Assembly: GCF_030548295.1 (NCBI RefSeq)
Contig: NZ_JAUOSB010000004.1
Location: forward strand, 62,001 to 126,000
From: Wenyingzhuangia sp. 2_MG-2023
Lineage (GTDB): Bacteria > Bacteroidota > Bacteroidia > Flavobacteriales > Flavobacteriaceae
Direction: 5' to 3'
DNA length: 64,000 bases
The notes beneath the pieces were generated by a model, which saw nothing but the letters and a program-made list of their open reading frames with translations, did no database searches and was not told where the DNA came from. How positions within the stretch are numbered: position 1 is the stretch's first letter; every line of letters starts with the position of its first letter. The position numbers and the translations under genes were made by a program. This document shows positions 29,817 to 42,098 of this stretch, one piece after another.

Positions 29817-32408
29817 ATGTCTAAACAAACCAAATTAACAAGATTCAACGACAACGTTCTTGCTAAATATCAGGTTTACAATAGTGTTTTTGCTACGCTT
29901 CCTTTTGATAGTGTTAGTAAAACAGGAACATTGTTACCTCTATTTAACGAGACTTGTATTGAGGGGTTTAAAAGTGGCAAAACTCCCACAGAAATTGTAG
30001 ATGAATTTTTTAACAAATACAAACCTGATGCTTCAGAAGAAGACAGAATTAGCTTTTTGTTTAAAATCATTCAATATATTGAACGTCAAGTAGTATTATT
30101 TGATGCTATAGAAGATGCTGCTTTCCCGATCATCAACAACATGGGAGGTGTCGGAACCATCAGAAACATCAAAGAGGAGGCTAGTTCTAAGCGTGTTAGA
30201 AGAGAATTAACACAATACTTATCTGACTTTAAAGTAAGATTGGTATTAACAGCTCACCCTACACAATTCTATCCTGGTACTGTTTTGACCATTTTGACTG
30301 ACCTACAAGAGGCTATTAAAAATGATGATTTAAGCTTGATTAAAAAATTATTGGCTCAATTAGGAAGAACAACGTTTTTTGCTGATAAAAAACCAACTCC
30401 TTACGACGAAGCGATTAGTTTGATCTGGTACTTAGAAAATGTATTCTACCACTCAATCAGTAAAATATACGATTACATACACTATCACTTATTCGAAGGA
30501 GAGGATGTAGACAATGAAATCATCAACTTAGGATTTTGGCCTTGTGGAGATAGAGATGGTAACCCATTTGTAACTACAGAAACTACCTTAAAAGTAGCAA
30601 GAAAACTAAGACAAACTATCTTAAAAAATTACTACAGAGACATTCGTAAGCTGAAACGAAGATTGACTTTTCCAGGTATTTTTGAATTGATGAACGAAAT
30701 AGAATCTAGCTTATACGACAGTTGTATTACTGAAAATTCTCCTATTAGAATTTCTGTAGAATCTTTGTTAAGCAAAATGACTTCTATCCGAAAAACATTG
30801 AAAGAAGAGCACAGCAACTTATTTGTAGATGAAGTTGATAGTTTTACAAACAAAGTTAAAATATTTGGTTTCCATTTTGCAACTATGGACATCCGTCAAG
30901 ACAGCCGTGTACACCACGATGTTTTTACAGGGATTGTAAAAGAATTGCAAGAAAAAGGAGATACCACTTTCCCTGCAAACTACTTAGAAATGTCTCCTGA
31001 TGAGCAAATTAAAGTATTGGCAAAAGTAAAGGGAAACATCAATCCAGAGAAATTCTCTGAAGAAATGGTAGTTAGAACTTTAGGTTCTATGAGAGCTATT
31101 GAAACTATTCAAAAAGAGAATGGAGAAAGAGGTGCCAACCGTTACATTATTAGTAACAACCAAACGGCATTGAATGTAATGGAAACTTTTGCAATGTTGA
31201 ACCTTTCTGGTTTTGACGATGGTTTGAACGTAGATGTTGCTCCATTGTTTGAAACTGTTGACGATTTGGCTATTGCTCCAGAAGTAATGAGGCAATTGTA
31301 TTCTATTCCAGAATACCGTCAGCATGTAGCAAAGAGAAAAAACAAACAAAACATTATGTTAGGTTTTTCTGACGGTACCAAAGATGGTGGTTATTTAATG
31401 GCCAACTGGGGTATTTACAAAGCAAAAGAAGAATTGACCAAAGTATCTAGAGAGTTTGGAATTAAAGTAATATTCTTTGACGGACGTGGTGGACCACCAG
31501 CTCGTGGAGGTGGAAAAACATCTAAATTTTATGCTTCTTTAGGTGATAATATTGAAAACAAAGAAATTCAGTTGACCATACAAGGGCAAACAATTAGTTC
31601 TAATTTTGGAAACTTAGATTCTTCTCAGTTCAACATAGAACAATTGTTAGGTGCTGGTATTACCAACAAGATTTTTAACGACCCTATGAATGCTTCATTA
31701 ACCGATGCACAAAAAGAATTGTTAGAAGACTTGGCTGAATCTAGTTTTAAAGCTTATTCTGACTTTAAAAACCATGAAATGTTTGTGCCTTACTTAGAGC
31801 GCATGAGTACCTTAAAATTCTATGGTAAAGCAAACATTGGTTCTAGACCTTCTAAACGTTCAAAATCTGACAAATTGAATTTTTCTGACTTAAGAGCCAT
31901 TCCTTTTGTAGGATCTTGGTCACAACTGAAACAAAACGTCCCTGGATTCTTTGGAGTTGGTACTGCCTTTAAAAAATACGAAGATGCAGGAGAGTTTGAT
32001 AAAGTTCAAGACTTGTACAACAACTCTAACTTCTTTAAAACTTTGTTAGAAAACAGTGTGATGTCTATGGCTAAATCTTTCTTTGATTTGACAAGCTACA
32101 TGGCTAAAGATGCTGAATTTGGAGCTTTCTGGAACATTATTCATGATGAGTTTGAATTGACAAAGAGATTGTTACTAAAACTAACAGGTCACACAGAATT
32201 GATGCAAAACTATCCTGATGGTAAAGCTTCTATTGCTGTACGTGATTCTATTGTATTGCCACTGTTGACCATTCAACAATACGCATTGAAAGAAGTTCAA
32301 AATATGAGTAAGTTAGAAAACCCAGACAACAAACGTTTAGAGACTTTTGAAAAAATAGTAACTAGATCGTTATTTGGAAACACCAACGCAAGTAGAAACT
32401 CCGCTTAA
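29817..32408 (+). CDS. ppc: Phosphoenolpyruvate carboxylase
   Basis: The 863-residue protein has PEPC active-site motifs: LTAHPTQFYPGT with His147, a GFSDGTKDGGYLMANW segment and FFDGRGGPPARGGGKT. The motifs differ from the enterobacterial forms (for example VFTAHPTE and GYSDSGKDAG), as expected for the Bacteroidota clade. PEPC fixes bicarbonate onto PEP to give oxaloacetate, an anaplerotic reaction in the cytoplasm. It is a single-gene unit with a good terminator. The C-terminus is shifted from the usual QNTG ending, so allosteric details may differ. Confidence 0.93.
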   Translation: MSKQTKLTRFNDNVLAKYQVYNSVFATLPFDSVSKTGTLLPLFNETCIEGFKSGKTPTEIVDEFFNKYKPDASEEDRISFLFKIIQYIERQVVLFDAIEDAAFPIINNMGGVGTIRNIKEEASSKRVRRELTQYLSDFKVRLVLTAHPTQFYPGTVLTILTDLQEAIKNDDLSLIKKLLAQLGRTTFFADKKPTPYDEAISLIWYLENVFYHSISKIYDYIHYHLFEGEDVDNEIINLGFWPCGDRDGNPFVTTETTLKVARKLRQTILKNYYRDIRKLKRRLTFPGIFELMNEIESSLYDSCITENSPIRISVESLLSKMTSIRKTLKEEHSNLFVDEVDSFTNKVKIFGFHFATMDIRQDSRVHHDVFTGIVKELQEKGDTTFPANYLEMSPDEQIKVLAKVKGNINPEKFSEEMVVRTLGSMRAIETIQKENGERGANRYIISNNQTALNVMETFAMLNLSGFDDGLNVDVAPLFETVDDLAIAPEVMRQLYSIPEYRQHVAKRKNKQNIMLGFSDGTKDGGYLMANWGIYKAKEELTKVSREFGIKVIFFDGRGGPPARGGGKTSKFYASLGDNIENKEIQLTIQGQTISSNFGNLDSSQFNIEQLLGAGITNKIFNDPMNASLTDAQKELLEDLAESSFKAYSDFKNHEMFVPYLERMSTLKFYGKANIGSRPSKRSKSDKLNFSDLRAIPFVGSWSQLKQNVPGFFGVGTAFKKYEDAGEFDKVQDLYNNSNFFKTLLENSVMSMAKSFFDLTSYMAKDAEFGAFWNIIHDEFELTKRLLLKLTGHTELMQNYPDGKASIAVRDSIVLPLLTIQQYALKEVQNMSKLENPDNKRLETFEKIVTRSLFGNTNASRNSA

Positions 32409-32432
32409 ACATAAGCTGGATTGCAACAATAA

Positions 32433-32470
32433 AAAGAGCCTTATCAAAATATTGATAAGGCTCTTTCTTT
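32433..32470 (+). terminator. Terminator of ppc
   Basis: A 15-bp stem (AAAGAGCCTTATCAA and its complement, 4-nt loop) is followed by a T-rich stretch, 24 bp after the stop. Confidence 0.88.
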
Positions 32471-32485
32471 GTTTTCAGGAAAACT

Positions 32486-32518
32486 AAAAAAGGGAAGCAT
32501 TATTTAATGCTTCCCTTT
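32486..32518 (-). terminator. Terminator of the 32558-33118 gene
   Basis: A stem of about 13 bp (AAGGGAAGCATTA and complement) with a small loop has an A-run at 32486-32491, giving a T-run on the minus strand, downstream of the minus-strand secreted-protein gene. Confidence 0.82.
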
Positions 32519-32557
32519 ACCTGTTAAATTTAAACCCTTTGCTTTCTTCTCTTCAAT

Positions 32558-33118
32558 TTACAAAGAAACTTGGTGGTAATACGTTTTAGAGTTGTTTTTT
32601 ACAACTTCTAAGAAATAATTTTGTTCCTCTTTAGCTCTAGGAACAATTAAACCTCTGTATTTTTTACTAAAATCAGCCTCAACCTCATCACCTTTTAAGT
32701 TGACCAATTTGATGCTAGAATATTTACCGTTGTAACGAACCAACACCTCTGTTTTGGCTTTTCTAATTACAATGTTACTTCTAGACTTTTCATTTTTCTT
32801 TTTAAGATCTTCGGCCAAAAGCTGTTCTTTTGTTTTTGCTTTTTTCACAAATTCTTCATCACGATTCATCTTTTTAACCATCGAGAATGAATTGTAATTG
32901 TACAATCCAACAGGATACATATAGTTTTGTTCGTTTTGATTTGCAATAATTGGCTTAACAACTTTTACCTCTTCAAGAATCTCATCAACAACATTCTTCT
33001 CATAAGCGTTTAAGGTAGATAAAGATTCATAACTATACAACCCAACTGGATAGGTGTAATTTTGTCCGTAGGTAACTCCTACCAACAATAGCACTGCGAT
33101 TAAGATAAATTTTCTCAT
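32558..33118 (-). CDS. Secreted protein with duplicated YPVGLY motif
   Basis: The 186-residue protein has a signal peptide ending near GVTYG. The mature part contains two copies of a short block, QNYTYPVGLYSYESLS at residues 19-34 and QNYMYPVGLYNYNSFS at 64-79, then a charged coil-like middle (Lys/Glu-rich, ~85-125) and a C-terminal basic beta region. I do not recognise the family. A candidate -7 element lies at 33142-33149 and an 18-bp palindrome at 33176-33193. It ends at its own terminator. Role unknown; location periplasm or outer surface. Confidence 0.7.
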   Translation of the reverse strand: MRKFILIAVLLLVGVTYGQNYTYPVGLYSYESLSTLNAYEKNVVDEILEEVKVVKPIIANQNEQNYMYPVGLYNYNSFSMVKKMNRDEEFVKKAKTKEQLLAEDLKKKNEKSRSNIVIRKAKTEVLVRYNGKYSSIKLVNLKGDEVEADFSKKYRGLIVPRAKEEQNYFLEVVKNNSKTYYHQVSL

Positions 33119-33141
33119 AGTATTATAGTTTTGATTTACTA

Positions 33142-33149
33142 CAAAGTTA
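33142..33149 (-). promoter_or_regulatory. TAnnTTTG -7 element of the 32558-33118 gene
   Basis: The minus strand reads TAACTTTG, an exact match to TAnnTTTG, 24-31 bp upstream of the ATG. Confidence 0.5.
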
Positions 33150-33175
33150 AAGCTGAAATACCTAACCGAGTTTAA

Positions 33176-33193
33176 TTTAATGTCAACATTAAA
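33176..33193. promoter_or_regulatory. Palindromic operator candidate
   Basis: TTTAATGT-CA-ACATTAAA is a perfect inverted repeat with 8-bp arms and a 2-nt spacer. It lies about 30 bp upstream of the candidate -7 element of the secreted-protein gene. A related half-site occurs at 33366-33381. The rest of the gene-free stretch 33119-33601 holds only these and the 33520-33556 terminator. Confidence 0.45.
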
Positions 33194-33519
33194 GACCTGA
33201 TTCCAAAAGGCTTATTTTCACGAAGTCCCTAAAATTATGCTAGATAATAAATTTATAAAAAAGTAAAAATATTTTAAGCTTGTACAATATTCAATTTCAA
33301 AGCTCCTTTTTTAAGAAATTCATAAGCTATCAAAACACAGGTATGCCATTCTCACCTTCTCTATGTTAATTTAATGTTAACGAATTGGGTTTTGAATTCT
33401 TTTTTGCGCTGTGACAGTTATTTTTTTTCTTGCTATTGATTTTATGACATAAAAAAAGCTATCAAGAGAAAAACGATGAACAAATACACTTTCTAACATT
33501 AACATGTTATTTAAACAAA

Positions 33520-33556
33520 AAAATCCCAAACAAGCATACTGCTTGTTTGGGATTTT
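33520..33556 (-). terminator. Terminator of the outer-membrane protein/lipoprotein operon
   Basis: A perfect 17-bp stem (ATCCCAAACAAGCA core, 3-nt loop) ends in an A-run on the left (33517-33523), giving a T-run on the minus strand, 45 bp past the lipoprotein stop at 33602. Confidence 0.92.
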
Positions 33557-33601
33557 AAATACTATCCAGATCTAATCTAAGTCTGTATAATAATGATTTA
33601 T

Positions 33602-34783
33602 TTAACCATTTATAATTTTATTCACTTCTGTACACAAACCATCTTGATTTAAGTTTATACCTGAATCTTTTACATCAGAACCTTTGATTGCATTCTCTCC
33701 TGAATCTGGTGTAATTCTAAACTTACCATCGTATTTAATTCTAAATTGATAGATTGTATCATCCTCTAAAGCAGGCCCTGTTCCTTTGATCCATCCATTT
33801 TTTATTGTTTGGAAGTATTTAAAGTTGGTCTCTCCAGCTGCTCTGTAGTAAACATCGTAACCGTTTAAAATAATATTTGCATCACAATCAATTGTTAAAT
33901 CAAGATTGTAATCTGTTATAGCTTCATCAGAAGTAACATCACTCTCTACTGGTGTTCCAGTTTCAATAATTTCACATACAGAAATAGTTTGTTTGTCTAT
34001 TAGTGTTTCAAAAGTAAATGTAGTATAATCAAATCTTCCTAATGAAAACTGATACTCTCCGTTTAAAAGAATTTTTAGAGCACCATAAAAATCGTTATTT
34101 TTTAATATAGCTCCAGTAATAGTAAATGTACCAACAGGAGCAGGAAACGCCCCCCCATTTAAATAATTTCCAGCATCATCATAAATTGCATATTTCATAT
34201 CAGCGTATAAAGAATTGTTGGTAAAACTAAACACAACTGCATCATCAGGAACTTCACAAGCTTCTGCCAATGTTTCAAAAGTATTGTTTACTTTTCCTGC
34301 TTTAGTTACAAATGAGACCCCAGATGTTGGAAACAATGCAACTGGATACGATTGTGCTTCTTCTGCACCATCAAAAACAACTTCAATTACTTTATCATTA
34401 AATCCTGTAGCAGAAATGGTCATGGTTACAGCTATAGGATTGTCTGCACTAGCATTTGCTTTTCTTTCTACTCCAAAAGAAAAAATACCATCCTCTGCAT
34501 TAAATTCATGTGATTCATATATATATTTTCCATATTCATCTTTTTCATATGATTGTGATCGACCAGCTTCATTGTATACATACTGAGCATTATCACCTGT
34601 AAAAGTGATTCTAGCATCATCCACAGATAAAAAAGTGTTAAAATCTAATAACCGCACGTTTATTTTATTTACAACTGCATCTGGCGTTACAGATATTTTA
34701 AACTCATCTTCAAATTTTGTATCGATACATCCTACTTGTAACCCAAGTAAAAATGCTATCATTATATATTTTATTGTTTTCAT
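33602..34783 (-). CDS. Lipoprotein of unknown function, beta-rich
   Basis: The 393-residue protein has a lipoprotein signal (IAFLLGLQVGC, Cys at 19). The mature chain looks like several beta-sandwich domains; the last ~100 residues (YNLDLTIDCDANIILNGYDVYYRAAGETNFKYF) resemble a fibronectin III-like repeat. I do not recognise the family. The gene follows the beta-barrel gene by 31 bp on the same strand and ends in a strong terminator, so the two form an operon. It is divergent from a two-component system whose intergenic region holds shared palindromes. It may be a surface partner of the barrel protein. Confidence 0.8.
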   Translation of the reverse strand: MKTIKYIMIAFLLGLQVGCIDTKFEDEFKISVTPDAVVNKINVRLLDFNTFLSVDDARITFTGDNAQYVYNEAGRSQSYEKDEYGKYIYESHEFNAEDGIFSFGVERKANASADNPIAVTMTISATGFNDKVIEVVFDGAEEAQSYPVALFPTSGVSFVTKAGKVNNTFETLAEACEVPDDAVVFSFTNNSLYADMKYAIYDDAGNYLNGGAFPAPVGTFTITGAILKNNDFYGALKILLNGEYQFSLGRFDYTTFTFETLIDKQTISVCEIIETGTPVESDVTSDEAITDYNLDLTIDCDANIILNGYDVYYRAAGETNFKYFQTIKNGWIKGTGPALEDDTIYQFRIKYDGKFRITPDSGENAIKGSDVKDSGINLNQDGLCTEVNKIING

Positions 34784-34814
34784 TTTTTTATGTTTTAGTA
34801 GTTATTTCTTTAGA

Positions 34815-35474
34815 CTAAAAAGAGAAAGCAAGCCTTAAGGAAACATAAGGCAAAAATTTATTTTCTTTAAAACTTTCTTGTAGCAATGCTTCTTGGTTTT
34901 TGGTTTCCTCTATTATACCTGTAGCATCTAGTGACATTTTTGGTCCGTCTGCATCGTAATAAGTTCCTAATTCTAATCCAAAACCAAATCCTGTTTTAGG
35001 TACAGGTTTTCCAAAAGCAATACCAAAGTAAGGCAATAAATTATCCCATTCTGCATTGATAAAGATCTCTCCTGTTTCGTCTGGAGTAAAAACTACATCT
35101 CCTATTTTTGTCTCCTCGGTAAAAGTCATGTCAACATCTACTTGGCTACTTGTAAAATAACCAGCACCCAATACAAATCTAAATCCTTTTCCAAACGGAG
35201 CAATACTTACTAATGCATCTACATGTCCAAAGTCAAATTCACCATCTATGGACATGTTCTCGCCATCTATTTCATACTCATAATCCTCATGTTTGTATTT
35301 TAGAACTCCATACCTAGCGGTTGCATAAAAATGATCATTCAATTTGTAAGAATAATCTACACCAAAACCTGTACCAGCACTAAGACCTATGGCATGGTGT
35401 CTTTCTTTAGTTTCTTGTGCATTTGCTACTCCTAGAGTAAACAGGGCACAAATCGTTAATAATAATTTTCTCAT
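34815..35474 (-). CDS. Outer-membrane beta-barrel protein
   Basis: The 219-residue protein has a signal peptide ending at GVANAQ and alternating strands ending in SLRLAFSF, the C-terminal aromatic strand of outer-membrane barrels. It resembles OmpA-like or OMP_b-brl proteins of 8 strands with no extra domain. It is the first gene of an operon with the lipoprotein gene downstream. Its leader region contains a long hairpin at 35513-35553. Substrate or role unknown. Confidence 0.82.
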   Translation of the reverse strand: MRKLLLTICALFTLGVANAQETKERHHAIGLSAGTGFGVDYSYKLNDHFYATARYGVLKYKHEDYEYEIDGENMSIDGEFDFGHVDALVSIAPFGKGFRFVLGAGYFTSSQVDVDMTFTEETKIGDVVFTPDETGEIFINAEWDNLLPYFGIAFGKPVPKTGFGFGLELGTYYDADGPKMSLDATGIIEETKNQEALLQESFKENKFLPYVSLRLAFSF

Positions 35475-35512
35475 ATGTTTAGTTTATAGTTAATTCTCAT
35501 CTTAAAATAGGT

Positions 35513-35553
35513 TATAGTAACTCCCTCCTCTCTCACCAGGAGGGATAACTATA
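35513..35553. repeat. Long hairpin in the leader of the beta-barrel gene
   Basis: An 8-bp inner stem (TCCCTCCT with AGGAGGGA, 8-nt loop) is extended by a 6-bp outer stem (TATAGT with ACTATA) across a small internal loop. It lies 39 bp upstream of the ATG at 35474. It has no T-run, so it is not a plain terminator; an RNA leader structure is possible. Confidence 0.55.
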
Positions 35554-35616
35554 CTCAAAACATAAAAAGATTAAATATCACTTTTATATTTTAATCCAAA
35601 GTAAGTTACATTCCCT

Positions 35617-35645
35617 CAACAAATGTTAATACTAAAGTATGATTT
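35617..35645 (+). promoter_or_regulatory. Direct repeat 1 with palindrome TACTAAAGTA
   Basis: This 29-bp block is repeated at 35934-35962 with a single mismatch, which falls in the palindrome core. The core here is TACTAAAGTA (35630-35639). It sits about 155 bp upstream of the barrel/lipoprotein operon and in the same intergenic region as the response regulator. Confidence 0.65.
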
Positions 35646-35746
35646 TAACAATCATAAAAAAATAATCCCTTGATGTTTTTTATAAAAATAACTTTTTCAC
35701 GGGTGTAAACGCTCTTTTTCATAAGTAGAACCTAAAACTTATCTAT

Positions 35747-35785
35747 AAAAAAAGAGGATTTCTATGGTATGTAGAAATCCTCTTT
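35747..35785 (-). terminator. Hairpin with minus-strand T-run in divergent intergenic region
   Basis: A perfect 14-bp stem (AAAGAGGATTTCTA and complement, 7-nt loop) has an A-run on the left, so it would terminate minus-strand transcription. No minus-strand gene lies directly upstream of it, since the next gene to the right is on the plus strand. It could end a short leader transcript or an sRNA. Confidence 0.6.
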
Positions 35786-35933
35786 ACATAAAACTCACTA
35801 ACTCTCTCTCTTTCAATCATATATTTTTACAGCTATTCTTAGACAGCTAATCAATTTTCTTTAACTAAATTTTAGCACTACTAACCTCACTTCTTTAGAA
35901 AAGCAATTCCATACAAAGAAAATGACATTTAGC

Positions 35934-35962
35934 CAACAAATGTTAATACTATAGTATGATTT
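35934..35962 (+). promoter_or_regulatory. Direct repeat 2 with perfect palindrome TACTATAGTA
   Basis: This block matches 35617-35645 at 28 of 29 positions. Its core TACTATAGTA (35947-35956) is a perfect 10-bp palindrome. It lies about 100 bp upstream of the response regulator start. Confidence 0.65.
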
Positions 35963-36007
35963 CGAAAAAAACATAACAAAAAACATTTTTTCATTTCCTA
36001 TAAATAG

Positions 36008-36017
36008 TACTTTAGTA
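36008..36017 (+). promoter_or_regulatory. Third palindrome copy TACTTTAGTA
   Basis: TACTTTAGTA is the exact reverse complement of the core of repeat 1. It lies 39-48 bp upstream of the regulator ATG and about 25 bp before a near-consensus -7 element TAATATTG (36043-36050), a spacing suited to an activator or autorepressor. Confidence 0.55.
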
Positions 36018-36055
36018 TGGTACACAACATTATATCCGTTAGTAATATTGTAATT

Positions 36056-36664
36056 ATGGAAAAAAAATATAAAATTATTATTGCTGACGATAATAAATTC
36101 TTTTTAGATGCACTTGACAACTATCTAAGTTCTTTTAAAGATTTTAAAGTAATGGCAACATGTAATTCTATAAAAGAAACTATTGTACAAACTAACAACA
36201 CCAATTTTGATCTTTTGATTCTGGATCTTAGTTTTAATGGTGAAAAATCTTTAGACTACCTTCAACAAATAAGACCTAAAGGATTGTCTTTTAAAATTAT
36301 CTGTTTAACAAGTTACAACAATGGAATTATAAAAGAAGAAGCCATCACCAATGGTATTGATTTGTTTATAGGAAAAGACAACGATTTAAAAAATTTTCCT
36401 ATCGCCATAAGAGAATTGTTAAACAACGCCCGTCAGAATTCTAAAAATGCTGAACTTTATTTAAAACCTGATTTGACCACTAGACAAATTGACATTATAA
36501 AAGCTTGCTTTGAATTTAGTACAGAAAAAGACATTGCAAATCATTTAGGAATCAGTATCAACACCCTAAAAACACACAAACAACATATATTTGCCAAAAC
36601 TTGCGCAAAAAACAACTTAGAACTGATTAAATATGGTATAAAGGAGGGAATTATTATTATATAA
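36056..36664 (+). CDS. NarL/FixJ-family response regulator
   Basis: I start at MEKKYKIIIADDN (36056); an in-frame upstream start would add 13 residues that do not belong to the receiver domain. The ~202-residue protein has an N-terminal receiver (acidic pair DD at 11-12, phospho-acceptor D57 in LLILDLSF) and a C-terminal LuxR-type helix-turn-helix (LTTRQIDIIKACFEFSTEKDIANHLGISINTLKTHKQHIF). The receiver Lys is present in GKDND. It controls transcription after phosphorylation by the kinase encoded 18 bp downstream. Palindromes upstream may be its own binding sites. Confidence 0.92.
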   Translation: MEKKYKIIIADDNKFFLDALDNYLSSFKDFKVMATCNSIKETIVQTNNTNFDLLILDLSFNGEKSLDYLQQIRPKGLSFKIICLTSYNNGIIKEEAITNGIDLFIGKDNDLKNFPIAIRELLNNARQNSKNAELYLKPDLTTRQIDIIKACFEFSTEKDIANHLGISINTLKTHKQHIFAKTCAKNNLELIKYGIKEGIIII

Positions 36665-36682
36665 TAAACCTACCTTTAATCC

Positions 36683-38464
36683 ATGAAATATGTTTACTTA
36701 ATCGTTGCCTTTCTTACAAGCATTTCTTTAGCCGCGCAAAGTAAAAACATCTACAAACAATGTTTTTTTTTAGCAGATTCTATTGAATGCAATTCTGTAA
36801 CCGAAGCGGTTGTTCATTTCAAAAATGGAGATTTTACCAAACCCTTTGGAAACAATGTTTACCATATTATTCCCTCTAACAAAACGGTTTGGTTTCATTT
36901 TAAAATACCGCCTCATAAAAACCACAGTTACTTTACCATTGCTAATTCCTATTTGCACCATGGAAAAGTATATACTTATAATGACACGCAACAAATAGAT
37001 AGTTTGGCAACTATAAACTACTATGAGAAATTTGGATTTAAGAATGTATTTTACAGACATCCCACATGGGAATTAAAAGCAACGAACAAAACCACTGATT
37101 GTTTTATACAAATTAGAGATGACGAACCCAAAGCAAGATTAGAATTGATTTTTAGCAATACTAACGAATTCTTAAAAAGGAATCAAATAGAGTATTTTTT
37201 ACTAGGTACAACCCTCACATTTTTGTCCTCTTTAATTCTTATTATTCTTTGTCTCTTTGTTACTCAGAAACAATTTAGTTTGCTGTGGTATGGTGGTTTT
37301 ATATTGTTTTTAATTACTGCAATTCTTGCTAACAAAGGTGTGGGAGCCCAATATATTTGGAATAATTATGATTTCTTAATACAATCCGCTAAAAGTTTTT
37401 CACACACATTGGCCACCATGTGTGCTGCGTTTTTTTATGCCAATTTTTATCCTCTAAAAAACAAATATCGTTACTTTAAAAAAATATTCTTAGGTATTGG
37501 ATATATTTGTTTGGCACTTGCTCTTGTTTACGTCTATAAAATGTGCTTTGGGGGACTGCCTTACTGGTATTTATTTGTTTGGACTATCTTAAAGATTTGC
37601 TTGGTCTCAACGGGATTGATACACGCATTTCTTCTCATCAAAAAAATAATCCCTGCTTATTTGGCTATTGGTTTTATCGTTTCAATTATTGGAACATTTA
37701 CATATCAATTTTACAATCCTATTCAAAATTCATCTTTGCTAAAAAGTTATTTTTTTACAGATATTTTTTACTTAACTGTAATTTTAGAATTGGTCTTGAT
37801 TATGTTCTATATTATTTCTGAAATTGTAAAAGGAAAACTACTTTCTATTACTTTGGAAAAAGAAAACTTAAAACTTAGAACTTCTTTATTGGGAATAGAA
37901 GATCAGCAAAAACATAAATTTTCTAGCAATGTGCACGATACTTTTGGTAGTTATATAGAAGCTTTAAACCTACAAGTATTAACCAACCCAAACACAGAAA
38001 AGCTTACAGAAATTATCAGTGCATTTAGAAATGAATATCAATTGTTGTTGACAAACATGTTTATCCCCAATGTATACGACAAAAATTTTAGAGAATCTAT
38101 TGAGAATTATTGTGATAAAATGAAGAGTTTGACTTCTCTAGACATTCACTTTTCATACACAAACACAACTCAATTACCTATTCCCAAAATTCATGCACAG
38201 GAAATCTATAAAATTATTACTGAACTTAGCGCTAACGTCATCAAACATTCTAAAGCAGAGAAACTTGTCATCAATTTTGTCTACTTTTCAAGTTACTTGT
38301 CTCTAGAAGTAAAAGACAACGGTACTGGTTTTTCAATCGTTAAAAACACAAAAGGAGTTGGTTTGCAAAGCGTAAAAAATAGAGTACAACTTTTAAAAGG
38401 TACTTTTTATTTAGATTCAATTCCAAATACAGGAACCACCATTAAAATAAATCTTCCTATCTAA
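36683..38464 (+). CDS. 7TMR-DISM sensor histidine kinase
   Basis: The 593-residue protein has a signal peptide, an extracytoplasmic beta domain (residues ~20-165) like the 7TMR-DISM extracellular domain 2, seven predicted membrane helices (~170-385), a short coiled coil, then a HisKA_3-type dimerisation helix with phospho-acceptor H418 (SSNVHDTFGSYIEAL) and an HATPase domain with N-box ELSANVIKHSKA, G1 VKDNGTGF and G2 GVGLQSVKNRVQLL. DISM domains often bind carbohydrates or similar ligands, so it may sense an external sugar. It pairs with the response regulator. The neighbouring glycan locus (38604 onward) is convergent and could be its target, but this is not shown by the sequence. Confidence 0.92.
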   Translation: MKYVYLIVAFLTSISLAAQSKNIYKQCFFLADSIECNSVTEAVVHFKNGDFTKPFGNNVYHIIPSNKTVWFHFKIPPHKNHSYFTIANSYLHHGKVYTYNDTQQIDSLATINYYEKFGFKNVFYRHPTWELKATNKTTDCFIQIRDDEPKARLELIFSNTNEFLKRNQIEYFLLGTTLTFLSSLILIILCLFVTQKQFSLLWYGGFILFLITAILANKGVGAQYIWNNYDFLIQSAKSFSHTLATMCAAFFYANFYPLKNKYRYFKKIFLGIGYICLALALVYVYKMCFGGLPYWYLFVWTILKICLVSTGLIHAFLLIKKIIPAYLAIGFIVSIIGTFTYQFYNPIQNSSLLKSYFFTDIFYLTVILELVLIMFYIISEIVKGKLLSITLEKENLKLRTSLLGIEDQQKHKFSSNVHDTFGSYIEALNLQVLTNPNTEKLTEIISAFRNEYQLLLTNMFIPNVYDKNFRESIENYCDKMKSLTSLDIHFSYTNTTQLPIPKIHAQEIYKIITELSANVIKHSKAEKLVINFVYFSSYLSLEVKDNGTGFSIVKNTKGVGLQSVKNRVQLLKGTFYLDSIPNTGTTIKINLPI

Positions 38465-38528
38465 AACACCACCTAAATTCAACCCCTCTAATTCCTTTAA
38501 AAAATTAAATATATTGACTATTTCAGAG

Positions 38529-38582
38529 CTGTTGTTTCTAACAAAAACATTGTCTTTATTCTATTCTTGTTAGAAACCACAG
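38529..38582. repeat. Inverted repeat between convergent kinase and GH117 genes
   Basis: CTGTTGTTTCTAACAA (38529-38544) pairs with its complement at 38567-38582 with one mismatch, leaving a 22-nt loop. It lies in the 139-bp convergent gap and probably limits read-through in both directions, although T-runs are weak. Confidence 0.6.
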
Positions 38583-38603
38583 TCTTAAAAAATAATTTAA
38601 CCT

Positions 38604-39635
38604 TTACTCCATCTCAAAACGTACCAAATACGCTTCTCCTTTTTTAACCTTCATGGCAATTCCCCAACCAGGAATATTATCTCCTTTATTTCCATCTTCT
38701 AAATCTGGGCGATACAAGCCTGGTGCTTTAGGGATATTGGTTAGATTTTCTGCCATCGTAGAAAAATGAATTCCATCCTTAGCATAATTAACGGTTTTAC
38801 TGATCGATGCTAATGAAGCCACTCCTCCTTCTTTTTTCCAAACCAATACCTCATGACTTTTATCTAAAAGTGCACCTTTATGTTTTACAAAAGGTCCTTC
38901 CGGTTGGTCTGCATAGGCAACACTCATTTGCGTTAACTTTGGTCCTTTAGCTCCATGAACAATAGACCTTCCTTTGTAATACAACAAAATCTTATTATTA
39001 CTTACCATTAAACTAGCATCATCTATTCTATAACTATCAAAATCTTCTGGTGTTTTACCAATCTCTAAAATAGGATTGTTTTCTACTCTTTTAAAAGGAC
39101 CATTAGGATTGTCTGCTACTGCTAAACCAAATGCAGTAAAATCTGTAGTATGATTTCCTTCAAACTCTCCTTTAGGATTCCCTGGGGTAGGCTTTACTCC
39201 TGTGTAATACAAATAATATTTTCCGTGGTAAGCCAAAATATTTGGAGTAAAAACTGAATGACTATCAAAAGCTCCTTTTTCTCCTAAACCTAATGCTTGT
39301 CCTTGCTCTTGCCAAGAATACCCTCCATCTTTAGAAGTTGCATACCATATAGTTGCCCAATAGCCCGAAGTTATAGGACTATCCATTCTAGAATACCAAA
39401 CATAATAAGTATCACCTACTTTAATCACATCACTGTTATCTCTTCGGTTGTAAAGACTATCTTTTCCTATACCCGTAATATTTTGATAGGTGAATTTTAA
39501 AGAAGATGTTTTTACAGAACTTACTAACTCTTGCTCTGTTTTTTCTTTGTTTTTATTTACACCACAACTTATTAGAGTGATTAAAGCAATAGAAGAACAA
39601 ATTTTTGTTACAATTTTATTTTTTTGATGTTTCAT
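38604..39635 (-). CDS. GH117-like exo-glycosidase lipoprotein
   Basis: The 343-residue protein has a lipoprotein signal (ITLISC, Cys 24) and a five-bladed beta-propeller matching GH117: RRDNSDVIKVGDTYYVWYSR (candidate Asp 66/69), GAFDSHSVFTPNIL, YRIDDASLMV (D205/D206) and KSHEVLVW, where the adjacent H261-E262 pair matches the His-Glu pair known in GH117 enzymes. Characterised members release 3,6-anhydro-L-galactose from agar oligosaccharides, though the family has other clades. It is the last gene of the long minus-strand locus. Substrate is inferred, not seen. Confidence 0.87.
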   Translation of the reverse strand: MKHQKNKIVTKICSSIALITLISCGVNKNKEKTEQELVSSVKTSSLKFTYQNITGIGKDSLYNRRDNSDVIKVGDTYYVWYSRMDSPITSGYWATIWYATSKDGGYSWQEQGQALGLGEKGAFDSHSVFTPNILAYHGKYYLYYTGVKPTPGNPKGEFEGNHTTDFTAFGLAVADNPNGPFKRVENNPILEIGKTPEDFDSYRIDDASLMVSNNKILLYYKGRSIVHGAKGPKLTQMSVAYADQPEGPFVKHKGALLDKSHEVLVWKKEGGVASLASISKTVNYAKDGIHFSTMAENLTNIPKAPGLYRPDLEDGNKGDNIPGWGIAMKVKKGEAYLVRFEME

Positions 39636-40586: not shown

Positions 40587-42098
40587 CTAAGTAGATTTTA
40601 AGACGGATACTGGGGGTAACGGAACATGGTTCTCTTTTCTCCAATTAACTAATTCCTCCAACAACTGCATCGTTTTTTTTGGATTTTGGTCTACAAGATT
40701 TTCTGTTTCTTTTAAATCTTCTTTTAAATTGTAAAGCTCTACTTTTCCATCATTTACAAACTGAATCAACTTCCAGTTTCCTTTTCTAATAATTGAACAT
40801 GGTGGATTTTTATAAGTACTAGCGATATGCCAAAAAAGAGAGCGTTCGGTAAAACTTATATCTTGTAAGAGCGGAACAATACTTTTACCATCTAAAATAC
40901 CTTTGTAATCTTTAATTTTAGCCAACTCTAAAAACGTAGGAAAATAATCCATTCCACAAATAGGCATATCAGAGTTTCCTGGTTTTATACTTCCTTTCCA
41001 ATTTACAAAAGCAGGTACTCTAATTCCTCCTTCATAAACAGTTCCCTTAGCTCCACGCAATGTATTCGTGTTACTTTGTAAACCGTTGAACCCATTGTCT
41101 GAAGTAAAGATTACTATAGTATTCTCTCTTAATCCCTCTTGATCTAAATAATCAAAAATGCGTTTTACATTTTCATCAATAGAAGCAATCATAGTTGCAT
41201 AACCCGCAATTTCTTCTAATCGTTCTTCTCCTTGTCCCGTTATAGTATCTGGAAGTTTATTTAAAAACTTTTGATATTGCTTTGAATTTCTTGGTACTGT
41301 TGGACGATGTGGAGCATAGTAATGAAGATTGACAAAAAATGGTGCTGTTTTATTTTCTTTTATAAAATGAATCGCTTCATCTGTTAACCTATCTGTCAGC
41401 CATTCATCATCATTTCTATCCTCTATAAAAGGATTTTTAAAGGGGGCTTTGTAACCTCCACTTTCAGATTTGTATCCTTTGGCATAACCTCTTGCAGGAT
41501 CTCCCCACCAAGAACCTCCAACATTTTTATCAAATCCTTTTCCTACAGGATAATATTGTTGAATTTCTGCTGATTTATGATCAGACAACCAGTCTAAATT
41601 TCCATTGGCGGGTTGTTTTAATGGTTTAACAAATGGATCATTAGTTTCTTCCTCTGGATTGGGTCCCACCACATGCCATTTACCCAAATGAATAGACTTG
41701 TAACCTGCATCTTTTAAAGGTGCTGCATACATGGTATGTTTTAAATCAACTGTCCAACGTGAGAAAATATTATGTTGTGCATCCCCTTTTTCTAACACAG
41801 GCACATTGTAAACTCCAGTTCTAAAAGATTGTTTACCCGTTAACAAAGCTGCTCTTGAGGGTGAGCATGTTGGATACATATATGCATTACTAAACACCAA
41901 ACTCTCTTTAGCAAATCTGTCTAAATTTGGAGTCTCAAACCATTTGCTCCCCATAAAACCAACATCTTGCCAACCTAAATCATCAGCCATAATAAAAATA
42001 ATATTAGGCTTTTTTACTTGTTTGTTTTGACTAATACCCACAAATGCTATAAAAAGGAAACCACAAACCAGGTTTATCGTTTTAAAGATTTTCATCAT
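40587..42098 (-). CDS. Secreted sulfatase (S1 family) 1
   Basis: The 503-residue protein has a signal peptide (cut near GISQ) and the S1 sulfatase pattern: IMADDLGWQD (metal Asp pair), CSPSR with C78 to be turned into formylglycine, GKWHV and TSDNG near residue 335. Formylglycine needs a maturase (FGE or anSME), not found in the window. It would remove sulfate esters from a glycan in the periplasm or outside. It is one of eight sulfatases in the locus and lies between the GH43 gene and the DUF6786-like gene (1-bp gap). Confidence 0.93.
   Translation of the reverse strand: MMKIFKTINLVCGFLFIAFVGISQNKQVKKPNIIFIMADDLGWQDVGFMGSKWFETPNLDRFAKESLVFSNAYMYPTCSPSRAALLTGKQSFRTGVYNVPVLEKGDAQHNIFSRWTVDLKHTMYAAPLKDAGYKSIHLGKWHVVGPNPEEETNDPFVKPLKQPANGNLDWLSDHKSAEIQQYYPVGKGFDKNVGGSWWGDPARGYAKGYKSESGGYKAPFKNPFIEDRNDDEWLTDRLTDEAIHFIKENKTAPFFVNLHYYAPHRPTVPRNSKQYQKFLNKLPDTITGQGEERLEEIAGYATMIASIDENVKRIFDYLDQEGLRENTIVIFTSDNGFNGLQSNTNTLRGAKGTVYEGGIRVPAFVNWKGSIKPGNSDMPICGMDYFPTFLELAKIKDYKGILDGKSIVPLLQDISFTERSLFWHIASTYKNPPCSIIRKGNWKLIQFVNDGKVELYNLKEDLKETENLVDQNPKKTMQLLEELVNWRKENHVPLPPVSVLKST

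Follow-up and report, generated by a model that had tools for sequence, protein, structure and literature searches.

A LuxR-type two-component system of Wenyingzhuangia with a predicted operator shared by a surface-protein operon, a second kinase locus and a candidate structured RNA

Two-component systems of the NarL/FixJ group, in which a regulator with receiver and GerE domains is encoded beside a kinase resembling UhpB, LiaS or NarX and recognizes a palindrome with TAC/GTA ends, are among the closest described counterparts of the system reported here, and the Gac/Rsm network (RetS, LadS, GacA, RsmY/Z), whose RetS and LadS of Pseudomonas are 7TMR-DISM kinases, is another. To our knowledge, few operators of two-component regulators have been defined in Bacteroidota. 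Here we describe a regulator-kinase pair and the intergenic region before it (positions 35475-38464) in a 64,000-nucleotide stretch of Wenyingzhuangia sp. 2_MG-2023 (Flavobacteriaceae; contig NZ_JAUOSB010000004.1, positions 62,001 to 126,000), hereafter the window. Its parts are ordinary: a NarL/FixJ regulator, a kinase with a UhpB/LiaS-like end and a small outer-membrane barrel. What sets it apart from NarL/FixJ systems is the 7TMR-DISM sensor part of the kinase, a set of targets that includes the barrel/lipoprotein operon and a predicted RNA, and an operator of the form TAC-N4-GTA as opposed to the 7-2-7 arrangement of NarL. Judging from sequence comparison, we consider it likely that the regulator is an activator which controls its own expression and whose small regulon includes the regulator operon itself, the surface operon, the locus of a second kinase (HK2) and a structured RNA, and that it acts from an operator centred near -42.5.

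With Gac/Rsm the system shares 7TMR-DISM kinases, a LuxR-type regulator, more than one kinase and a structured RNA target (predicted here), so that the combination may work by Gac-type logic. It differs from Gac/Rsm in its operator and in the RNA itself: Rfam at gathering threshold gave no match in the five loci searched, which include both versions of the RNA (C222 and C36, described below), or in positions 32000-39000 of the window; neither version thus matches a known Rsm/Csr RNA family; and, counted by eye, C222 holds one GGA motif and C36 none, where several would be expected of a Gac/Rsm RNA. Since the RNA matches no Rfam family and has almost no GGA motifs, we do not claim membership in Gac/Rsm. 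Within the Bacteroidota, FopS and GibS of Bacteroides thetaiotaomicron are described, in the portion of PMC11697453 drawn on here, as multicopy small RNAs of about 65-70 nt with sigma-ABfr-type promoters; the RNA predicted here shares this class of promoter, whereas it is about 170-220 nt long, rod-like and found once per genome, with a candidate activator. Flavobacterium psychrophilum Rfp18 is likewise a flavobacterial small RNA behind a TAnnTTTG-class promoter, for which the corresponding portion of PMC9723704 names no two-component activator, while a candidate exists here. Among the titles and abstract openings listed in a literature search, none reports the present system.

The sequence-only reading of this DNA had pointed to three TACTnnAGTA palindromes between two divergent operons, two of them embedded in 29-bp direct repeats, and these observations hold: exact matches stand at 35630 (site A), 35947 (site A2) and 36008 (site B), the repeats 35617-35645 and 35934-35962 differ at a single base, and the genes are as described, with barrel and lipoprotein on the minus strand and response regulator and kinase on the plus strand. 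The whole window has five such palindromes, a number reached by none of 100 dinucleotide shuffles (mean 1.18). Three of the five fall within 388 bp, between the barrel and regulator genes; the remaining two, at 41112 and 63281, each lie within an open reading frame (ORF; sulfatase-like, read by eye).

The arrangement recurs in a same-genus genome, G004, which we treat as W. heitensis. There a lipoprotein-barrel pair faces the regulator-kinase pair, adjoining the same large enzyme gene (92% identical; PEP carboxylase by eye), and the intergenic region of about 240 bp holds two palindromes 60 bp apart, the second of them 48 bp before the regulator ATG. The window pair at 35947 and 36008 matches this geometry, being 61 bp apart with another 48 bp to the ATG, and site 35630 is placed relative to the window barrel about as the first W. 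heitensis site is to its own; thus the 317 bp between 35630 and 35947 appear to be extra, absent from W. heitensis. The regulator-side palindrome is kept in all four genomes that carry the regulator clade (G000, G001, G004 and G186; those without it are G002, G003, G005 and G006) despite differing gene neighbours. In G001, where regulator and barrel do not form a divergent pair, TACTTTAGTA nevertheless stands 47 bp before the regulator ATG; the G001 barrel operon follows a LuxR gene, which is itself divergent from HK2 across a palindrome. G186 has the regulator, the first kinase (HK1) and the HK2-barrel region on three separate contigs, and its regulator is preceded by the palindrome TACTATAGCA and, 40 bp on, by the imperfect AACTTTAGTA, 50 bp before the ATG. 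This second site, whose place and promoter box TATATTTA at 25 nt were read by eye, was left out of all counts. The HK2 site of G186, AAATCATATTTTGATATGATTT, is symmetrical and differs by matched changes in its two halves from AAATCATACATAAGTATGATTT, the HK2 site of G000.

A sequence-only profile was built from ten sites chosen by gene context and run on the eight genomes. The best score in the four genomes without the regulator clade was 12.6 bits, and in the four with it 13 places besides the ten training sites scored above 12.6 bits, with a maximum of 20.4. Altogether 64 non-training places were examined: the genomes with the regulator supplied 19 of at least 12 bits and 18 of lower score, the four others 27. 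The genome-wide motif search that the sequence-only reading had called for thus has a double outcome: the sites track the regulator clade, and the same operator also occurs at the unlinked HK2 locus and at other targets.

In Flavobacterium the -7 box TAnnTTTG occupies positions -12 to -5 (as given in the portion of PMC9723704 used here). We scored a box as present when at least five of its six defined bases matched exactly 25 nt from the last base of the palindrome, in either direction. Boxes at this distance accompany 6/10 training sites, 9/19 further sites (at least 12 bits), 1/18 of the weaker ones and 1/27 in the other genomes (Fisher P 0.0006 for 9/19 versus 1/27), and at other offsets the 19 further sites gave a mean of 0.45 boxes and at most 3. 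The 25-nt spacing would put the centre of the palindrome near -42.5. This is the usual position of class II activators. Exceptions among the training sites are the G001 regulator, with a perfect box at 24 nt, the HK2 site of G186, with no box, and two sites with 4/6 matches at 25 nt, regulator site A of G186 and site A of W. heitensis, which has TTACTTTA at the barrel offset and so falls below the 5/6 criterion. Membership of the regulon by a fixed box distance is therefore a tendency of the group, from which individual sites vary. Between them, the W. heitensis conservation, the clade tracking and this spacing give the palindromes the character of operators, which is the part of the earlier claim of regulator binding that stands, and binding by this regulator is what we would predict from it.

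In the window, site A (35630-35639, minus strand; training site, 18.6 bits) is the predicted operator of the barrel-lipoprotein promoter and points left through the -7 box TTACTTTG (35597-35604, minus strand), 25 nt away, to a predicted start near 35592 with a leader of about 118 nt. Site B (36008-36017, plus strand; training site, 17.4 bits) is the predicted operator of the regulator-kinase promoter and points right through TAATATTG (36043-36050, plus strand), a box found at the same offset in W. heitensis; the predicted start near 36055 is one base before the ATG, and the mRNA would be almost leaderless. Site A2 (35947-35956, minus strand; training site, 19.2 bits) is a copy of site A including its promoter, and points left through TTTCTTTG (35914-35921, minus strand; 25 nt) to a predicted start near 35909. 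An intrinsic terminator on the minus strand follows between A2 and A (35785-35751; a 14-pair stem and then a T run, -18.8 kcal/mol), and the predicted short transcript is species-specific and about 165 nt long (35744-35909, minus strand). Terminator-like sites in 35400-36200 number two as against 0.1 in shuffles, the second lying at 35701-35714 on the plus strand. Without gaps, the repeat of A and A2 extends to 72 nt at 75% identity (by BLASTN, A2 matches 35594-35643 with 82% over 50 nt), and the identity is concentrated in the part running from the operator through the -7 box. What was duplicated therefore seems to be a promoter and no gene, and the second copy would give rise to a short transcript kept separate from the barrel. 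The fold of this transcript is unremarkable (z -1.89, with 8/200 shuffles at least as stable) and is weak evidence. Its region has no homologue in the related loci compared, nor any convincing common sequence with the C222/C36 RNA. Of the three palindromes that had been regarded as shared by both operons, the one at 35947 therefore looks like a species-specific duplicate promoter with its own terminator. Separately, the 5' leader predicted for the barrel mRNA contains a hairpin (TCCCTCC/GGAGGGA; 35522-35545) whose G+C-rich sequence stands out from the DNA around it and which is a possible regulatory or RNA-pairing element.

The locus had also been taken for a self-contained sensing unit with its own output. 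This does not agree with the same operator being present at an unlinked LuxR/HK2 locus, at a predicted structured RNA and at other genes. With a box at 25 nt, sites occur at the HK2 loci of G000 and G001, where the box points to the LuxR genes, and ahead of a G000 gene for a protein with Big_13 and Por_Secre_tail domains (C110:448220), a 66-residue zinc-ribbon-like ORF of G000 (C1:602299), a lipoprotein-LpxR operon of W. heitensis (C1:24067), a 668-residue W. heitensis protein that begins with a signal-like stretch and matches nothing in Pfam (C1:352694), and a stretch of about 185 nt in G186 that ends in a terminator (C15:17101); two more lie within ORFs (W. heitensis C1:876100 and G001 C3:18333). 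The site at G000 C1:602299 was considered as the promoter of a small RNA and rejected: it faces the 66-residue ORF, which has CPHC and CASC motifs (Zn_ribbon_IS1595 20.9 bits, below the cut-off of 25.4), and a small protein is more likely.

The remaining two sites with a box at 25 nt, G000 C222:64465 and G186 C36:27816, lie upstream of proB, with their boxes (TACTTTCG and TACATTTG, respectively) pointing away from it, toward convergent genes. Control of proline synthesis or of the osmotic response was considered, as the best G186 site and one G000 site are upstream of proB, and was set aside as not the simplest reading, because the -7 box points away in both and because nothing comparable lies in the 450 bp before proB in the other six genomes (18.0 and 25.0 versus at most 8.3 with our own weight matrix). 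The stretches ahead of the two sites contain no long ORFs. Their predicted transcripts, of about 170-220 nt and found once in each of two genera, are related to each other (BLASTN E 3e-4 in a six-sequence comparison; common sequence TTTAGGGGTAG), and each folds as a long rod with TTTAGGGGTAG at its tip and GGGG as apical loop (z -3.9 and -4.8, respectively, with 0/200 shuffles as stable for each). Once aligned, both sequences form every one of the 34 pairs of the rod, and 13 of these pairs have two-sided changes, whereas slid-alignment controls gave 52-62% paired and at most four pairs with two-sided changes; as the structure comes from these very sequences, the comparison is biased towards it, and a pair of sequences is a small sample. 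The related loci compared contained no additional homologue.

Under the reading that we favour, HK1 would, on a presumed signal, phosphorylate the LuxR/NarL-type regulator, which, probably as a dimer, would bind (AAATCA)TAC-N4-GTA(TGATTT) at sites whose centre lies about 42.5 bp upstream of the start of transcription, and would activate promoters with a TAnnTTTG-like -7 box. It would thereby switch on its own operon from site B, the barrel/lipoprotein operon from site A and the short terminated transcript from A2 and, elsewhere, act at the LuxR/HK2 locus, at the production of the rod-like RNA upstream of proB and at a few secreted or small proteins; HK2 would probably be able to feed the regulator too. 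The chief rival explanation is that the palindromes serve a different protein as operators, such as the solo LuxR encoded beside HK2, and that the response regulator is merely one of its targets. This LuxR protein is indeed encoded beside the HK2 palindrome in both G000 and G001, with the -7 box pointing at its gene, and LuxR-type helix-turn-helix proteins often bind palindromes of this kind. On the other hand, each of the four genomes with strong sites has the response-regulator clade, whereas the remaining four gave no hit or one of only 46% identity, and no solo LuxR was seen in those loci of W. heitensis and G186 that were read, although these two genomes were not searched for one; we therefore regard this explanation as improbable. 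We give much the same low weight to the regulator binding these sites as a repressor, or as both repressor and activator. Some sites are close to a start codon, such as the one about 20-25 bp before the likely ATG of HK2 in G001, where a bound protein could block transcription of HK2, but the -7 box that this very site has at 25 nt points the other way, and the preferred centre is where activators usually stand.

Another possibility is that only A, B and the HK2 site matter and that the distant sites, C222 and A2 in particular, are relics or chance occurrences. The A2 transcript, with its modest fold and its lack of a homologue in the loci compared, would fit this, and so would the position of C222 between yidC/AraC and proB, a place taken in G186 by HK2 and the barrel operon, as it could be the remnant of a former locus. 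Against it stand the concentration of the A/A2 identity in the part from operator to -7 box, the recurrence of the 25-nt spacing at unlinked sites and the C222/C36 pairs that were kept through 13 two-sided changes, and we consider it unlikely, if somewhat less so than the two explanations above. The autoregulated activator thus remains the reading that we prefer, and several observations weigh against it. The profile was applied to no more than the 150 best first-look candidates of each genome; the -7 box is AT-rich and was accepted at 5/6 matches; 10/19 further sites have no box at 25 nt; and 5/19 are within ORFs (W. heitensis C1:876100 and C1:352694, the latter in a 121-residue ORF, G001 C3:18333 and C14:116759, and G000 C175:19251, all kept in the counts), including three of the nine with a box. 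In G186 the HK2 site lacks a box at 25 nt, the barrel is preceded by a half-site only, and no palindrome was seen upstream of the HK1 gene in the locus read. Finally, the control genome G005 has a 46% identical regulator beside a kinase, and the site is absent there. More speculative, and in our view possible without being probable, is that the whole constitutes a Gac-like network of independent origin, in which two paralogous 7TMR-DISM kinases would feed one LuxR-type regulator that, from its -42.5 operator, would activate a new family of rod-like regulatory RNAs, the barrel/lipoprotein operon and, in this species, a second small RNA that arose by copying a promoter only.

The regulator (36056-36664, plus strand; 202 residues, with the ATG taken as 36056) matches Response_reg (54.4 bits, cut-off 30.2) and the GerE/LuxR helix-turn-helix (34 bits, cut-off 23.5), and the acidic pocket, phosphoacceptor Asp and Thr/Ser-Lys of the receiver, seen as ADD, LILD, L(T/S)S and a Lys, are kept in the five regulators aligned (read by eye). 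HK1 (36683-38464, plus strand; 593 residues) combines a membrane part of the 7TMR-DISM type (7TMR-DISM_7TM, 44.5 bits, cut-off 29) with HATPase_c (38.7 bits), while the extracellular domain model 7TMR-DISMED2 scores 21.0 bits, slightly under its cut-off of 22; its C-terminal half matches the UhpB, LiaS, NarQ and NarX models, each below the naming cut-off. The motif (N/D)(V/I)HD of the phosphoacceptor histidine is present in all seven kinases compared. The W. heitensis kinase is 70% identical to that of the window, and the kinases form two groups 28-32% apart, HK1 in G000, G004 and G186 and HK2 in G000, G001 and G186, with the G005 kinase 28-30% from both. In these searches, therefore, the regulator occurs with HK1 only (in one relative), with HK2 only (in another) or with both, which makes it probable that each of the two kinases is able to feed it. 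At the thresholds used, the regulator was detected in four of seven same-genus genomes, where the G005 copy is just 46% identical, and in 3/299 genomes of a family sample (G000, G005 and G186). The LuxR proteins encoded next to the HK2 palindrome in G000 and G001 are 56% identical. Beside HK2, G001 (L056:6559-7941) also has, together with the 230-residue LuxR gene, a 131-residue partial relative (36% over 97 residues), which looks as if it had been duplicated and then truncated.

The first gene of the divergent operon (34815-35474, minus strand; 219 residues) is assigned to an outer-membrane beta-barrel, an assignment that rests on a Pfam match below threshold (OMP_b-brl, 21.9 bits, cut-off 28.7) and on a predicted CarO-like fold (Foldseek E 8.9e-12; VIA-align Z 17.2, rmsd 4.2, 187 residues aligned). 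Identity to CarO is about 20%, the barrel is paired here with a lipoprotein gene, and no function is transferred. Close barrels (65-71% identical in G001, G004 and G186) are found in three of the seven genomes of the genus (G000, G001 and G004) and in G186. In the family sample five of 299 genomes have matches, three of them distant (24-32%), and in the stretches of these three that were read this two-component system was not found. A separate observation is that G106 (L053:7924-12686) has two tandem barrel-lipoprotein pairs with distant barrels (28-32%), near which this two-component system was not seen in the stretch read. The second gene (33602-34783, minus strand; an ORF of 393 residues) encodes a surface lipoprotein for which a Pfam search at E 0.001 gave no match; its N-terminal 142 residues are 43% identical to the protein encoded at the corresponding place behind the barrel in G186. 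Whole-model Foldseek matches of the lipoprotein fold are weak. The middle domain of the W. heitensis lipoprotein (L019:2794-4440; model residues ~117-337), as predicted, matches the GAIN domain of adhesion GPCRs (CD97, Z 11.6, rmsd 3.3, 149 residues aligned) as well as the ZU5 domain of ankyrin (Z 9.7), and the G001 lipoprotein has a sub-threshold FAM171 match. The window lipoprotein has 393 residues versus 521-581 in three counterparts and, by eye, seems to be without the GAIN/ZU5-like part. Near the regulator there is also a gene for a small secreted protein (window 32558-33118; G186 L069:345-905; W. heitensis L019:8085-8678; 186 residues, no Pfam match), and the left-pointing regulator site of G186 faces this gene.

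Some further sites deserve mention. In the G186 stretch at C15 (L108:4008-4240), a 12.6-bit site with a TAnnTTTG that matches fully at 25 nt faces some 185 nt which lack any long ORF and end in a strong terminator, and this makes the stretch a candidate small RNA, unless the terminator belongs to the convergent gene. At G186 C49:176889 (L104) and C14:15478 (L107), palindromes with the same core lie within A/T-flanked inverted repeats between co-directional genes; by eye these repeats resemble terminators, so that the two kinds of element may have been mistaken for each other there or may coincide, and both palindromes were counted as sites and not used as targets. G000 C12:72359, ahead of the gene of a YHYH protein, has no box at 25 nt and remains uncertain, and G000 C179:14757 has just 4/6 box matches at that distance. 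An exact match to an earlier pattern at G000 C1:686351 was discarded, being inside a coding sequence.

For a test, one protein and a few probes would do, given how explicit the operator, its distance from the -7 box and the candidate targets of the four genomes are. Should the RNA target prove real, Bacteroidota would gain a small RNA for which a candidate activator can be named, and the repeat of 29 bp in the window would then be a clean case of a promoter module that was copied and gave rise to a new regulated transcript.

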